From: Roseivirga spongicola
GTDB lineage: Bacteria > Bacteroidota > Bacteroidia > Cytophagales > Cyclobacteriaceae
NCBI RefSeq assembly: GCF_001592965.1
Contig: NZ_LRPC01000029.1
Span: 1 to 64,000 of the forward strand
DNA length: 64,000 nucleotides
Direction: 5' to 3'
Position numbers and translations under genes: made by a program. Shown one piece after another: positions 26,620 to 41,360 of this stretch. Numbering within the stretch: position 1 is the first letter of the stretch; each line of letters opens with the position of its first letter. Below the pieces are notes generated by a model. It ran no database searches. It was given only the letters and a program-made list of their open reading frames with translations, and had not been told where the DNA came from.

Positions 26620-26807
26620 ATTACTTGTTCAAAATTTGAGCCCCAAAAATAGTTTTAAAACAATGTATATTCAAATTAAAGCACCTAGAATAAACGCCCC
26701 TTATACACTAGTTTAACCTGTACGTGCATTTATTTGTAAACAACATACAGAGTATTTGATTCAAAAGGCATTTTTACCGATCTTGGTTCAATTATTTGAC
26801 CAATTAA

Positions 26808-27506
26808 ATGCTTCCGAACTACTCCATTGCATCTGAGTCGCAACTCATAAAAGAACACTTTGGCATAGAAATTCCTGAGAACCACAAAGGGACCTATAAC
26901 GCTCAACCTACTGACTTACTTCCAATTATTACCAGTGCAGACCCTGATGAACTCAGCTTTTTTCACTGGGGAATTCACCCTTCTTTTACTAAGAGTAAAG
27001 GCGTAAGTCAAAAACTGATTTTCGCTCCGGCCGAAGAAATTCTGAGCAAAGCATCACAAAGAAAAAGTATAAAACAACAAAGGTGCATTATACCTGCCGA
27101 TAGCTTTTATTGCTGGAAGGATGTAGGGAAAAAAGAGCAAGTACCTTATAGATTTTATCTTCAGAACAATAGTCTTTTCAGCATTGCTGGCATTTGGGAT
27201 ACTTTTGAAACGGAAGAAGGTGAACAGGTAAACACTTTTATGATGCTCACTACTATGGCCAATAATGATGTGGCCGATGTGAGTAACAGAATGCCTGCTA
27301 TTTTGAATGATGATTTGCTAGATGAGTGGCTAAATGAAGCCAATACCTCAGAGAGTATTTTAGAGTATGTAAAGCCTTTTAATGATGAACCATTAAAAAG
27401 CTATACGGTAAATCCTAAACTGGCCGATCCGAAGTTTAACAGTATTGATTTATGGGAAAAGGTACCGCCAGCCAATCAGTTTGGCAACTTGACTCTGTTT
27501 AATTAA
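26808..27506 (+). CDS. SRAP (HMCES/YedK) family protein lacking all catalytic residues
   Basis: The 232-aa protein follows the SRAP fold along its whole length: an N-terminal strand, TYNAQPTDLLPI, FFHWGIHPS, CIIPADSFYCW and SNRMPAIL. In active SRAP proteins Cys2 forms a covalent link with abasic sites, and Asn75, Glu105 and His160 (E. coli YedK numbering) help. Here these are Leu2, Phe72, Cys102 and Ser159, and the Gly-Arg after Cys2 is Pro-Asn. The start is secure because an in-frame TAA lies directly before the ATG. Thus it cannot make the usual thiazolidine crosslink. It may still bind DNA or have a different activity. Its stop overlaps the convergent DUF6503 gene. Confidence 0.88.
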   Translation: MLPNYSIASESQLIKEHFGIEIPENHKGTYNAQPTDLLPIITSADPDELSFFHWGIHPSFTKSKGVSQKLIFAPAEEILSKASQRKSIKQQRCIIPADSFYCWKDVGKKEQVPYRFYLQNNSLFSIAGIWDTFETEEGEQVNTFMMLTTMANNDVADVSNRMPAILNDDLLDEWLNEANTSESILEYVKPFNDEPLKSYTVNPKLADPKFNSIDLWEKVPPANQFGNLTLFN

Positions 27507-37070: not shown

Positions 37071-40000
37071 ATGTATCTGATATTTGATACCGAAACCACC
37101 GGTTTACCCCAAAATTACAATGCTCCGTTAACGGATTTTGAGAACTGGCCAAGGCTAGTGCAAATAGCATGGCAGTTACATGACATGAGGGGTAACTTGC
37201 TCGTTGCCAGAAACCTCATAGTTAAACCTGAGGGCTTCACCATTCCTTATAACTCGGTTCAAATTCATGGAATTACTACTGAACGAGCTTTAGAAGAAGG
37301 GAAAGACCTGAAAGAAGTGCTAGCCATGTTTGAAGAGGACATGAAAGGTGCCGAATTCGGTATTGGCCATAATATAGAGTTCGATTATAACATTGTAGGA
37401 TCTGAATTCTTAAGAGCCGGACTAACCAATCCGCTGGAGCATTTAGAAGAGTTAGACACCAAATTAGTTTCTACTAATTATTGTGCAATTCCGGGAGGTA
37501 GAGGCGGTCAATTCAAGTGGCCTACCCTAACCGAACTTCATACTAAACTCTTCGGCAAGGCCTTCGCTGAGGCTCACGATGCCGCCTATGATGTAGACGC
37601 TACAGCACGATGTTTCTTCGGCCTAATCAAGGAAAGCGTTGTTCCTCCAGCAAAAGGAATAAAACTACACGAGGTTATTTATGAAGCCCCTGAGTTAGAC
37701 GAAGCAAATTTTGCTAAAACAGACACTACTGGCCCCAAAATAGACCACAATAAAGTAGATAAAGAAGGGCTCACAGAGCTTAAAGAAGTACCATTTTCAC
37801 ACTTACACGTTCATTCACAGTTTTCCATCCTCCAGGCCGTATCGGATATCAATAGTTTAGTTGGGGCTGTAAAAGAAATGGGTATGCCTGCCGTGGCTCT
37901 TACTGACCATGGCAATATGATGGGAGCCTTTCATTTTGTAAGTGCCGCTTTAGCTGCAGACATCAAGCCTATTGTAGGTTGCGAATTCAATGTTTGTGCC
38001 GACCGATCTAATAAAAAAGTTCAAGACAATGGTTTTCAAACGGTTATTCTGGCTAAAAACAGAAACGGGTATCATAACCTTGTAAAGCTTTCATCTATTG
38101 CCTTTACAGAAGGCTTCTACTACGTACCAAGAATTGACAAGGACGACTTAATTAAGTATAAAGAAGACCTAATTATACTTACTGGTGGCCTTTGGGGCGA
38201 AGTTCCTTATAAGATTCTAAACGTTGGAGAAACGCAGGCAGAAGAAGCCTTTGCTTGGTGGAAAGAACAGTTCGGAGACGACTTCTATGCAGAAATAAAC
38301 CGACACGGCATCCCTGAAGAAGACCATGTCAACTCCATTCTACTTCAACTTTGTAAAAAGTATGATGTAAAATATATAGCAGCCAACAACACTTACTACA
38401 CCACCAAAGACCAATCTTCTGCTCACGATGTACTGCTTTGTGTAAAAGATGCCGAATCGGTCAATAAGCCGAAAAAGTACATAGGTAAGCGTGGTAGAGA
38501 GTTTAGGTATGGCTTCCCTAATGACGAGTTCTACATTAAGTCGGAAGACGAGATGAAGAAGCTCTTCTCCGATATTCCAGATGCCATTACCAATACCAAT
38601 GAAATTGTTGAGAAGGTAGAATCATATCAATTAGCGAGAGATGTACTTCTTCCTAAATACGAGATTCCAGAAGAGTTTCAACACCCCGAAGACGATATTG
38701 ACGGAGGCAAGAGAGGAGAAAACGCCTATCTACGACATCTAACTTATGTAGGTGCAGAAGCTCGATACGGAGAAATAACTGATGATATTAGAGAAAGGCT
38801 AGACTTTGAGCTTGCTACCATTGAAAGAACAGGTTACCCTGGCTACTTCCTCATTGTTCAAGATTTTACCAACAAAGCCAAAGAACTAGATGTATCCGTT
38901 GGCCCTGGCCGGGGTTCGGCTGCTGGTTCGGCCGTAGCCTATTGTATAGGAATTACTAACGTAGACCCAATTAAGTACGATCTCCTTTTTGAGCGTTTCC
39001 TAAACCCTGACAGGGTATCACTTCCCGATATTGATATTGATTTTGATGATGAAGGAAGACAAAGAGTAATTGATTATGTGATTGACAAATACGGCAAAAA
39101 TCAAGTTGCTCAGATTATTACATACGGTACAATGGCGGCCAAGTCTTCTATCAGAGATACAGCCAGAGTGCTTGAACTCCCTCTTTCGGAAGCCGACCGA
39201 GTTGCAAAACTGGTTCCTGACACCAAACTGCGAAAACTCTTTGGGTGGTCTGAAAAAGACCTCCGCGACAACCTAAGGTCTGAACAGGTACCACTAGCAC
39301 AAGAACTTAGAAAGATAGCCGAAGGCAACAACCTCGAAGCAAGAACGGTTAACCAAGCACGAGTAATTGAAGGCTCTGTTAGAAACACTGGTATACATGC
39401 TTGTGGAGTAATTATTACGCCTGACGACATCACCAAGTTTGCTCCTGTAGCCACCGCCAAGGACTCTGACATGTGGTGTACTCAGTTCGACAACTCGGTG
39501 GTAGAAAGTGCAGGTCTACTGAAAATGGACTTCTTGGGTCTGAAAACCCTTACCCTTATTAAGGATGCGGTTAAAAACGTAAAAGAGAAACATGATGTAG
39601 ACCTAGTTCCTGATGACTTTCCACTAGATGACCAAAAGACTTATGAGCTCTTTCAGCGAGGAGAAACGGTAGGGATTTTCCAGTACGAATCTGCTGGCAT
39701 GCAGAAGTACATGAAGGAGCTAAAACCTACGGAGTTTGCAGACCTTATTGCCATGAACGCCCTCTATCGCCCGGGGCCTCTTGAATACATCCCTTCCTTT
39801 ATTCGAAGAAAACATGGTGATGAACCAATCACTTATGACTTGGCCGATATGGAAGAATATCTGGCTGAAACATACGGAATTACGGTATATCAAGAGCAGG
39901 TGATGCTTCTTTCGCAAAAGCTGGCCGACTTTACCAAAGGTGAGGCAGACGTTTTGCGTAAGGCCATGGGTAAAAAGCAGAGGGCTGTACTAGACAAAAT

Positions 40001-41360
40001 GAAGCCTAAGTTTGTTGAGCAAGCTAAGGCCAAAGGGCACGATGAAAAGAAGCTTGAAAAAATCTGGCGCGACTGGGAGGCTTTTGCTTCTTACGCCTTC
40101 AATAAGTCGCACTCAACTTGCTATGCCTATGTAGCCTTCCAAACGGCATACCTTAAGGCTCACTACCCTGCTGAATACATGGCTTCTGTACTCAGCAACA
40201 ACATGAACGACATTAAGCAGGTAACCTTCTTTATGGAAGAGTGCAAGCGAATGGGGGTTCCTGTACTCGGTCCAGATGTTAATGAATCGAACTATAAATT
40301 TACTGTAAACCAAAACGGAGAAATACGTTTTGGAATGGGGGCCATTAAAGGTGTAGGCGAAGCAGCTATTGAATCGATAGTGGCAGAAAGGAAAGAAAAT
40401 GGGCCGTATAAGAACATTTTTGATTTTGCCGAACGCGTAAACCTAAGAGCGGTAAATAAGAAAAACTTTGAAGCCCTAGCGCAAGCAGGAGGCTTTGATT
40501 GCTTCGAATACCATAGAAGACAATACTTATGGGCAGAAGACAATGAGCAAACCCTAATTGAAAAGGTTATCAGATATGCCAATGCCATGCAGGCAGAGAA
40601 AGATGCTGCTCAGGTTTCATTGTTTGGCGGAGATAGTAATGTAGCCACTCCCCTACCTAAAGTTCCTGAGGTAGAAACCTTTAGTCAGATGGAAAAACTT
40701 AGGTTAGAGAAAGAGGTCATTGGCTTCTACGTTTCTGGCCATCCTCTCGACCAGTTTGAGATAGAATTAGAATCTTTCTGCAAACCAATTTCAGACATCA
40801 ATAAATTCCCCAATCAAGATATTTCCATTGGTGGAATAGTCAACTCCGTTCGGAATGGGCAGACTAAAACTGGTAAACCCTTCGGTATACTAAACATTGA
40901 AGATTACAACGGGGCCACAGAGCTCTTCTTGATGGGTGAAAAATTCATCAATAATGCCGCCTACTTACGCCCAGGTGAGTTCTTATTCATCCGAGGAAAG
41001 GTTGAATTAAACTGGAGAAAAAAGAAGGAAATTCGAGACAACCCGGCTATTAACCCGAACCCTGAAGACTGGGAACTCCAGACTCAGACCATCTCACTAC
41101 TTAGTGAGCTTCGAGAGAAAATGGGGAAAGGAGTTCATATAAGACTAAATGCAAGAATGGTCGATCAAGATTTAATCGATACCATTATGCAACTTACCGA
41201 AACCTACGAAGGAGAAACCATGTTGAAGATTGAGCTTTTTGACAGGGAAGAAAACATCAAGGTTGAACTTATCTCTAGAAAAGTGAAAATCGATCCAACT
41301 CGTGAGTTAATCAAAACCTTGAATAGCTGTACAGATGGTGCCAGATTAATTACTGCATAA
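37071..41360 (+). CDS. dnaE: DNA polymerase III alpha subunit with fused N-terminal 3'-5' exonuclease
   Basis: The 1429-aa protein starts with a DEDDh exonuclease domain (about residues 1-200: FDTETTG with Asp6/Glu8, GHNIEFDYNIV, AHDAAYDVDATA). It then has a PHP domain from about residue 243 (SHLHVHSQFS, ALTDHGNMMG) and the polymerase core with catalytic acidic residues in LPDIDIDFDDEGRQRV near 652 and GPGRGSAAGSAVAY. A helix-hairpin region and an OB fold near the C-terminus (about 1250-1320) follow. It is the replicative polymerase, with proofreading built into the same chain. DnaE of many Bacteroidota has such an N-terminal exonuclease. The gene stands alone, between a small membrane protein and thioredoxin. 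Confidence 0.95.
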   Translation: MYLIFDTETTGLPQNYNAPLTDFENWPRLVQIAWQLHDMRGNLLVARNLIVKPEGFTIPYNSVQIHGITTERALEEGKDLKEVLAMFEEDMKGAEFGIGHNIEFDYNIVGSEFLRAGLTNPLEHLEELDTKLVSTNYCAIPGGRGGQFKWPTLTELHTKLFGKAFAEAHDAAYDVDATARCFFGLIKESVVPPAKGIKLHEVIYEAPELDEANFAKTDTTGPKIDHNKVDKEGLTELKEVPFSHLHVHSQFSILQAVSDINSLVGAVKEMGMPAVALTDHGNMMGAFHFVSAALAADIKPIVGCEFNVCADRSNKKVQDNGFQTVILAKNRNGYHNLVKLSSIAFTEGFYYVPRIDKDDLIKYKEDLIILTGGLWGEVPYKILNVGETQAEEAFAWWKEQFGDDFYAEINRHGIPEEDHVNSILLQLCKKYDVKYIAANNTYYTTKDQSSAHDVLLCVKDAESVNKPKKYIGKRGREFRYGFPNDEFYIKSEDEMKKLFSDIPDAITNTNEIVEKVESYQLARDVLLPKYEIPEEFQHPEDDIDGGKRGENAYLRHLTYVGAEARYGEITDDIRERLDFELATIERTGYPGYFLIVQDFTNKAKELDVSVGPGRGSAAGSAVAYCIGITNVDPIKYDLLFERFLNPDRVSLPDIDIDFDDEGRQRVIDYVIDKYGKNQVAQIITYGTMAAKSSIRDTARVLELPLSEADRVAKLVPDTKLRKLFGWSEKDLRDNLRSEQVPLAQELRKIAEGNNLEARTVNQARVIEGSVRNTGIHACGVIITPDDITKFAPVATAKDSDMWCTQFDNSVVESAGLLKMDFLGLKTLTLIKDAVKNVKEKHDVDLVPDDFPLDDQKTYELFQRGETVGIFQYESAGMQKYMKELKPTEFADLIAMNALYRPGPLEYIPSFIRRKHGDEPITYDLADMEEYLAETYGITVYQEQVMLLSQKLADFTKGEADVLRKAMGKKQRAVLDKMKPKFVEQAKAKGHDEKKLEKIWRDWEAFASYAFNKSHSTCYAYVAFQTAYLKAHYPAEYMASVLSNNMNDIKQVTFFMEECKRMGVPVLGPDVNESNYKFTVNQNGEIRFGMGAIKGVGEAAIESIVAERKENGPYKNIFDFAERVNLRAVNKKNFEALAQAGGFDCFEYHRRQYLWAEDNEQTLIEKVIRYANAMQAEKDAAQVSLFGGDSNVATPLPKVPEVETFSQMEKLRLEKEVIGFYVSGHPLDQFEIELESFCKPISDINKFPNQDISIGGIVNSVRNGQTKTGKPFGILNIEDYNGATELFLMGEKFINNAAYLRPGEFLFIRGKVELNWRKKKEIRDNPAINPNPEDWELQTQTISLLSELREKMGKGVHIRLNARMVDQDLIDTIMQLTETYEGETMLKIELFDREENIKVELISRKVKIDPTRELIKTLNSCTDGARLITA

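Follow-up and report, generated by a model that had tools for sequence, protein, structure and literature searches.

SRAP proteins are known for one reaction, the crosslinking of their Cys2 to abasic sites. In the genus of Roseivirga spongicola, a protein with the predicted SRAP fold has lost the residues of this chemistry. The observation and the argument that selection maintains this SRAP across the genus are both solid, and its loss of catalysis is strongly supported. The gene was found in a window of 64,000 nucleotides (the whole stretch of DNA analysed). It occupies a conserved locus and encodes a retained C-terminal tail, through which the protein would act by contact, most likely with the replication sliding clamp.

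An SRAP fold without the catalytic residues

The features of the gene are collected in Table 1. Its product matches the Pfam SRAP profile PF02586 (E 1.5e-47; 162.4 bits for a cut-off of 27.1), and the motifs TYNAQP, FFHWG, PADSFYCW and SNRMPAIL, quoted in the original prediction as signs of the fold, are all found. The nearest solved sequences (11 phmmer matches) include BT_1218 (2f20), HMCES and YedK. An AlphaFold2 model, computed with the window protein, its named close relative L031 and 27 SRAPs from phage contigs as input, has a mean pLDDT of 86.4 and a pTM of 0.86. All 21 Foldseek matches of this model at E <= 0.001 are SRAP chains. With VIA-align, Z values of 23.9-25.2 were obtained against the YedK and HMCES entries, and of 19.8-26.3 across the 15 entries listed. 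By its profile match and its fold, the window protein is a member of the SRAP superfamily. The whole fold is like that of the canonical PF02586 protein, E. coli YedK (Z 25.0, rmsd 2.4 over 212 residues with 6nuh), and like that of human HMCES (Z 24.8 with 5ko9), which is catalytic. A longer start is excluded because a TAA codon in frame abuts the ATG, as had been pointed out in the original prediction. A mis-called start concealing an MCGR sequence is ruled out by this stop, and Met1 begins all 15 rows of the genus alignment.

Table 1. Coordinates of the SRAP gene and of its features in the window
Feature	Position	Strand	Basis
SRAP-fold pseudoenzyme gene, 232 codons and TAA stop	26808..27506	+	ORF, Pfam, AlphaFold2, Foldseek, structural superposition
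TAA stop in frame, abutting the ATG of the SRAP gene	26805..26807	+	sequence
Codons 2-4, Leu-Pro-Asn replacing Cys2-Gly3-Arg4	26811..26819	+	sequence, alignments
Codon 72, Phe at the YedK Asn75 position (genus: F9 Y8 M2)	27021..27023	+	alignments
Codon 74, Pro at the YedK Arg77 position (Pro in 19/19 of the genus)	27027..27029	+	alignments
Codon 102, Cys at the YedK Glu105 position (Cys in 2/19, unconserved)	27111..27113	+	alignments
Codon 159, Ser at the YedK His160 position (Ser/Thr in 18/19)	27282..27284	+	alignments
Codon 161, Arg at the YedK Arg162 position (Arg in 18/19)	27288..27290	+	alignments
C-terminal tail PPANQFGNLTLFN, predicted disordered, common to canonical relatives, resembling a sliding-clamp motif	27465..27503	+	alignments, AlphaFold2, ORF-end pattern counts

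In the profile alignment, residues C2, N75, R77, E105, H160 and R162 of YedK correspond to L2, F72, P74, C102, S159 and R161 of the window protein; the same alignment and the gap-free genus alignment set G3-R4 against P3-N4. The four replacements and the Pro-Asn pair described in the original prediction were therefore right, numbering included. Among the 19 rows of the genus, position 2 is Pro in nine, Leu in five and Gln in five; position 4 is N14 S4 T1, position 102 is A6 D6 C2 N2 T1 I1 S1, position 159 is T9 S9 A1 and position 161 is R18 E1. C2, N75, E105 and H160 are each absent from all 19 orthologues. The genus has thus lost the nucleophile that removal of Met would expose and the two residues of acid/base catalysis. 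Also missing are the Asn in contact with Cys2 and the arginines of YedK positions 4 and 77. In contrast, positions 2, 4, 72, 74, 102, 159 and 161 are occupied without exception by C, R, N, R/K, E, H and R in the 24 canonical rows that bear the tail. No Cys is placed at the active-site position by the profile, genus or structural alignments. The structural listing gives the first and last aligned residues of each entry, and residue 2 of the model pairs with chain residue 2 at the alignment start in 14 of the 15 entries listed; the hidden active-site cysteine that the original prediction had envisaged as its own refutation did not appear.

According to passages of PMC9436759, Cys2 and Glu105 matter most among YedK mutants, His160 mutants are about ten-fold slower, and the effect of changing Asn75 to Ala is modest. 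In the light of these mutants, a protein without C2, E105 and H160 is very unlikely to crosslink. Loss of crosslinking by the window protein is held with high confidence, and loss of catalysis in the genus is strongly supported.

It may be imagined that the enzyme has been re-wired, with Cys102 or another residue as the nucleophile, or with the free N-terminal amine forming a Schiff base. Cys102, put forward in the original prediction, is present in the window protein and in L031, and the C2A mutant of YedK remains able to form a Schiff base and to act as a slow lyase (passages of PMC9436759). However, position 102 is variable and Cys102 was rejected as a conserved feature; no substitute nucleophile is common to the 19 rows, and the Pro, Leu or Gln found at position 2 means that no N-terminal nucleophile is conserved. 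In addition, the lyase rate constant of YedK C2A, 0.05, falls to 0.002 when E105Q is introduced (same passages). A re-wired enzyme is thus given very little credence.

Conservation and selection in the genus

A Cys2-less orthologue was found in all 19 genomes of the genus (G000-G018), and each has exactly 232 codons; in this count L031 stands for G015, from whose contig it apparently comes. The alignment of 15 orthologues has no gaps. Of nine pairs, four gave a computable dN/dS, with values of 0.040, 0.032, 0.036 and 0.018; three of these ratios are rough because dS, at 1.6-2.3, is near or above 1.6, and near-saturation is avoided only by the value of 0.032 (dS 0.17). In the five other pairs, synonymous sites are saturated and pN is 0.03-0.14. 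The SRAP of the genus is under strong purifying selection. A tree of 108 rows (scores >= 190, plus L047 and L068) was built without the active-site columns. The 19 genus rows form a single clade in it, with a support of 100/100. The 19 outgroup rows form one side of the tree (87/90; L022, L026, L028, L030 and L059 are tail rows, not outgroup), and the backbone is weak, with 17 of 105 inner branches open.

The original prediction had read the intact frame as a sign that selection acts on a function outside the known chemistry, and had left it to a tree to tell whether the residue set belongs to a clade or to one decaying genome. Frame length, selection and tree all bear out the first reading, and the residue set marks one clade. 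Neutral decay of a dispensable gene could be suspected from the disappearance of all four catalytic residues and from family members that resemble intermediate stages of loss. Yet the low dN/dS and the gap-free alignment refute it, as does the identical length in every genome, and hardly any weight is left to it. An assembly error, or decay in a single genome, was rejected on the presence of the orthologue in 19/19 genomes and on the low dN/dS.

Locus and origin of the gene

The PF02586 profile search found one SRAP gene in the genome of the window, and no canonical copy elsewhere in it, although a second copy had been considered in the original prediction. The Cys2-less copy is the sole SRAP found in 11 of the 19 genomes of the genus. 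A second SRAP is present in the other eight, and begins with MC in the seven N-termini read (L067 left out). Neighbourhoods were sampled from 12 of the 18 other genomes of the genus and from eight loci of other genera, the neighbours being named by Pfam (ACP synthase III, 2-oxoacid dehydrogenase acyltransferase, proteasome-type subunit). The order fabH, DUF6503 gene, SRAP, pdhC, hslV is kept in all 12 neighbourhoods of the genus. In L299, a locus from G019 in another genus of the same family, a canonical SRAP (MCGRY, N/E/H; the same copy as L006) lies, like the window gene, beside pdhC and hslV, at 1.1 kb from pdhC with hslV beyond; fabH is about 5 kb away on the opposite side of the SRAP gene. 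In L296 and L300, fabH adjoins SRAP, and in five of the eight loci from other genera none of the ten other query genes was near it. Because the order of the locus is kept and the canonical SRAP of L299 lies near pdhC-hslV, the gene was most likely changed in place, and the window SRAP is most likely a vertical descendant of a canonical SRAP that crosslinked abasic sites. The paralogue suggested in the original prediction fits poorly with a sole SRAP in the genome and a canonical relative beside the same pdhC-hslV genes.

By Pfam, the ten genes that flank SRAP include no replication or repair gene, and two of them have no match at all. No conserved operon partner was found in the 12 genus and eight other-genus loci, and no regulatory palindrome was seen by eye in the pdhC-SRAP intergenic region. 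SRAP-related proteins have been proposed as regulatory subunits of UmuC-like polymerase complexes (passages of PMC12926913), and SRAP genes are enriched to some degree near polB2 (passages of PMC11791011). The SRAP-like group of the former work is defined by association with PolY. In contrast, no PolY is found among the genes flanking the window SRAP, which is on contig C29; the two PolY genes of the genome are on C1 and C28.

Loss of the catalytic residues in the family

SRAP was found in 288 of the 295 genomes searched from the same taxonomic family, and 218 of 395 genomes match the profile at the class level. Forty family loci were hand-picked by score band, the sample not being random. Among 89 sampled tail-bearing rows, whose classes are not frequencies because the sample was partly picked by score band, all four catalytic residues are present in 24, none in 24 and only the Asn in 21; C2 and Asn remain without E and H in six, only C2 is lost in three, and 11 show other mixtures. 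L101, L106, L109, L010 and L127 keep Cys2 (MCERY) but neither Glu105 nor His160, and so resemble intermediate stages in the loss. A parsimony count on the 108-row tree gives at least eight changes at position 2. For a correlated loss of C2 with E105 or H160, only three independent pairs were available; E105 and H160 were lost together in 3.6 of six independent pairs on average (p 0.125).

Degenerate sites are also seen beyond the family, in two rows with the tail that come from other families of the order: L047, which keeps Cys2, and L068, which lacks it. L068, from G043 (1.6 Mb genome), starts with MVDRY, has N/F/T at the other positions, ends in QYGNYSLF and sits on a very long branch. L071 (G022) is a very degenerate SRAP-like ORF of 257 codons from stop to stop, with an LPNYS sequence and gaps around the active-site positions. 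The 21 best-scoring loci outside the family all keep N75, E105 and H160; Cys2 is present in 19, the N-terminus being unaligned in the other two. Viral relatives matching the tailed profile amount to one locus, with a canonical start. In passages of Aravind et al. 2013 (PMC3765255), the His, Glu and Cys of SRAP are called absolutely conserved. Neither a Cys2-less SRAP clade nor an SRAP clamp tail was found in titles and abstracts of the open-access literature, subscription papers being mostly outside this scope, and the SOS response-associated peptidase and the sliding clamp gave no open-access match together.

Charge and DNA contacts

Compared with YedK, the window protein keeps Pro at P40, Trp at W106 and Arg at R162, replaces C2, G3, R4, N75, R77, E105 and H160, is strongly acidic and has a conserved C-terminal tail. 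The net charge of the SRAP is -6 to -13 in the genus (median -9), versus -3 to +4 (median 0) in the canonical rows; in the 29 other Cys2-less rows it is -12 to +7 (median -4). A lineage-wide acid shift was rejected as the cause, since fabH, hslV and pdhC have no clear shift (1-3 non-genus copies per gene). R4 is present in 24/24 canonical and 0/19 genus rows, and so is R/K77. A basic residue is gone at position 17 in 19/19 and at position 91 in 17/19 genus rows; in all, basic residues at positions 4, 9, 11, 17, 29, 74, 90 and 91 are lost or fewer. Passages of PMC3765255 describe two conserved arginines of 1zn6, R86 and R180, thought to touch DNA. If these are taken as the NAR and RMP arginines, the window SRAP has kept one of the two presumed contacts, Arg161, the other being Pro74. 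The loss of R4, R77 and other basic residues, together with the acidic charge, argues that a YedK-like binding of the DNA backbone would also be weakened in the genus. The DNA-binding role suggested in the original prediction thus loses ground, yet an Arg stands at the R162 position in 18/19 rows.

These data bear on a model in which the protein would read abasic sites or single-stranded DNA junctions non-covalently, its cleft binding the lesion and shielding or flagging it without a crosslink. In addition to the Arg at the R162 position, Pro at YedK P40 and Trp at W106 are found in all 108 tree rows, and YedK with a blocked Cys2 and a mutated Glu105 or His160 still bound DNA (passages of PMC9436759). 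However, weakened backbone binding counts against a simple reader in the genus, where R4, R/K77 and the basic residues at 17 and 91 have gone and the charge has fallen without a clear shift in fabH, hslV and pdhC. Such a reader is rather unlikely here. It would better suit the 29 other Cys2-less rows, which may still bind DNA, because R4 is kept in 29 of them, R77 in 14 and R162 in 21.

The C-terminal tail

The tail, overlooked in the original prediction, is among the best-kept stretches of the genus SRAP and is its clearest retained functional feature. In the 19 genus rows, picked by genome and independently of the tail, positions 224-231 are Q19, F19, G19, N15/S4, L12/F7, T19, L19 and F19, giving the pattern QFG(N/S)(L/F)TLF; the mean frequency of the top residue is 0.93 over these positions versus 0.62 at 181-219. 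The pattern G[NS]x[STI]LF ends 85 of the 86 distinct ORFs scoring >= 250, a count in which the clade profile, since it includes the tail, favours such rows; the remaining ORF is cut at a contig end. Because canonical and Cys2-less ORFs alike end so, the tail is common to catalytic relatives and outlives the chemistry. Tail-bearing canonical SRAPs (L003, L006, L008, L077 and others) have the same tail, mostly DQFGN[YL]TLF; unlike the window protein, they keep C/N/E/H (24 rows), have R4 and R/K77 intact and are near-neutral in charge. The canonical, other Cys2-less and "QFGN" groups were selected by tail pattern, and their tail conservation of 0.95 and 0.88 is partly by construction; so is the absence of strict Q..[LIM][FL] ends (0/68).

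Ends of the form [LVIFYM][STND]LF plus 0-2 residues occur in 21 of 292 mechanical ORFs of at least 150 amino acids from the window and 20 neighbourhood loci; all are SRAP, one per source. QFG..LF occurs once in the genome of the window, in the SRAP gene, and a shorter tail pattern has a second match there, inside a long ORF. In the DNA of the 19 genus genomes, QFG..LF has 38 matches, versus 10 for the reversed-pattern control. Thirty matches could be given a locus: 17 are SRAP and 13 other. Most of these 13 lie in frames that are short or interrupted, or within long frames, and the tail was rejected as a motif of other proteins. L322, a non-SRAP ORF of 138 residues, has QFG..LF near its end.

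Human HMCES carries a C-terminal clamp (PCNA) motif, which the literature passages searched do not document. The bacterial sliding-clamp motif has the consensus QxxLF (passages of PMC12926913). The tail of the window protein, NLTLF, departs from the strict consensus because its first position is Asn (15/19) or Ser (4/19) in place of Gln. The remaining positions resemble the clamp-type motifs of the organism itself, QVSLF after the HHH domain of DnaE, QINLF in PolY and QLTLEF at the end of DinB. DnaE has four Q..[LIM][FL] strings, of which QVSLF is the sole QxxLF, and the OB match after it is under the Pfam cut-off. In the AlphaFold2 model, residues 221-232 are predicted disordered (block mean pLDDT 55, then 39), consistent with the exposed flexible segment expected of a clamp motif.

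Two observations concern polymerase genes. A DNA polymerase III alpha subunit of 1429 amino acids is encoded at 37071-41357 (+); an N-terminal RNase_T exonuclease domain precedes its PHP domain, and its HHH domain is followed by the QVSLF motif. In the same genome, two genes (L198 and L200, about C1:165770-168387) lie close together in opposite orientation, one for a Y-family polymerase and the other, of DnaE type, a second and shorter copy; the pair recalls the DnaE2B-PolY-RecA link of Bacteroidetes described in passages of PMC12926913.

QxxLF was found within the last nine residues of 14 of 60 non-redundant other Bacteroidia SRAPs (L005, L013, L017, L018, L032, L038, L054, L055, L057, L061, L065, L118, L185 and L196), where 0.23 were expected and at most four occurred in 2000 shuffles, an excess inflated by common descent, which the test ignores. 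Since most of these 14 keep the catalytic residues, many active Bacteroidia SRAPs may also be clamp-tethered. No such end was found in 25 non-redundant SRAPs from phage contigs.

Considering the sequence data, the chances that the sliding clamp (DnaN) is the partner of the genus tail stand about even. Q224, F225 and G226 are as invariant as L230-F231 and are not needed by a five-residue clamp motif, so that the partner may be another protein. As QFG..LF occurs once in the genome of the window, the complete tail is absent from the known clamp clients of that genome. The lack of a replication or repair gene, by Pfam, among the neighbours examined also speaks against the clamp. In a second possible mechanism, the protein would be an adaptor with a tail that binds some other partner than the clamp, the SRAP body serving as scaffold. 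The length of the conserved tail (eight residues), its invariant QFG, the Asn or Ser at clamp position 1 and its single occurrence in the genome would all suit such an adaptor. However, the last residues of the tail match the organism's own clamp motifs, and QxxLF or xxLF ends are frequent in other SRAP types. This adaptor deserves consideration as a minority possibility.

A proposed clamp-tethered pseudoenzyme

In the preferred model, the ancestor was a canonical crosslinking SRAP that already bore a tail ending in QFGN(Y/L)(S/T)LF. The genus SRAP would be unable to form the thiazolidine crosslink and would work by binding partners instead. Its tail would be an anchor, most likely docking on DnaN. 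At the fork, the SRAP body would serve as an adaptor or regulate access, in either case non-covalently, an example being the exchange of polymerases or repair enzymes, and the contact of the tethered body with DNA would be at most weak. Taken jointly, a SRAP pseudoenzyme tethered to the clamp by its tail, with a body acting by contact as adaptor or access regulator, comes a little short of an even chance.

A broader proposal may be envisaged, more tentatively. The SRAP family would have a conserved non-covalent function based on a clamp-binding tail and separable from crosslinking. In one Bacteroidota family, the chemistry would have been lost repeatedly and the tethered scaffold kept, in some genomes as the sole SRAP and as a pure clamp-associated regulator.

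The SRAP of this genus is a natural separation-of-function experiment, in which the chemistry has been removed and the fold and tail have been kept. This retention suggests a second, non-chemical job for the SRAP family. Binding of the tail to the sliding clamp, if it does occur, would tie bacterial SRAPs to the replication machinery. A role of SRAP that is wholly non-covalent, and difficult to discern in catalytic members, would then be open to direct testing.
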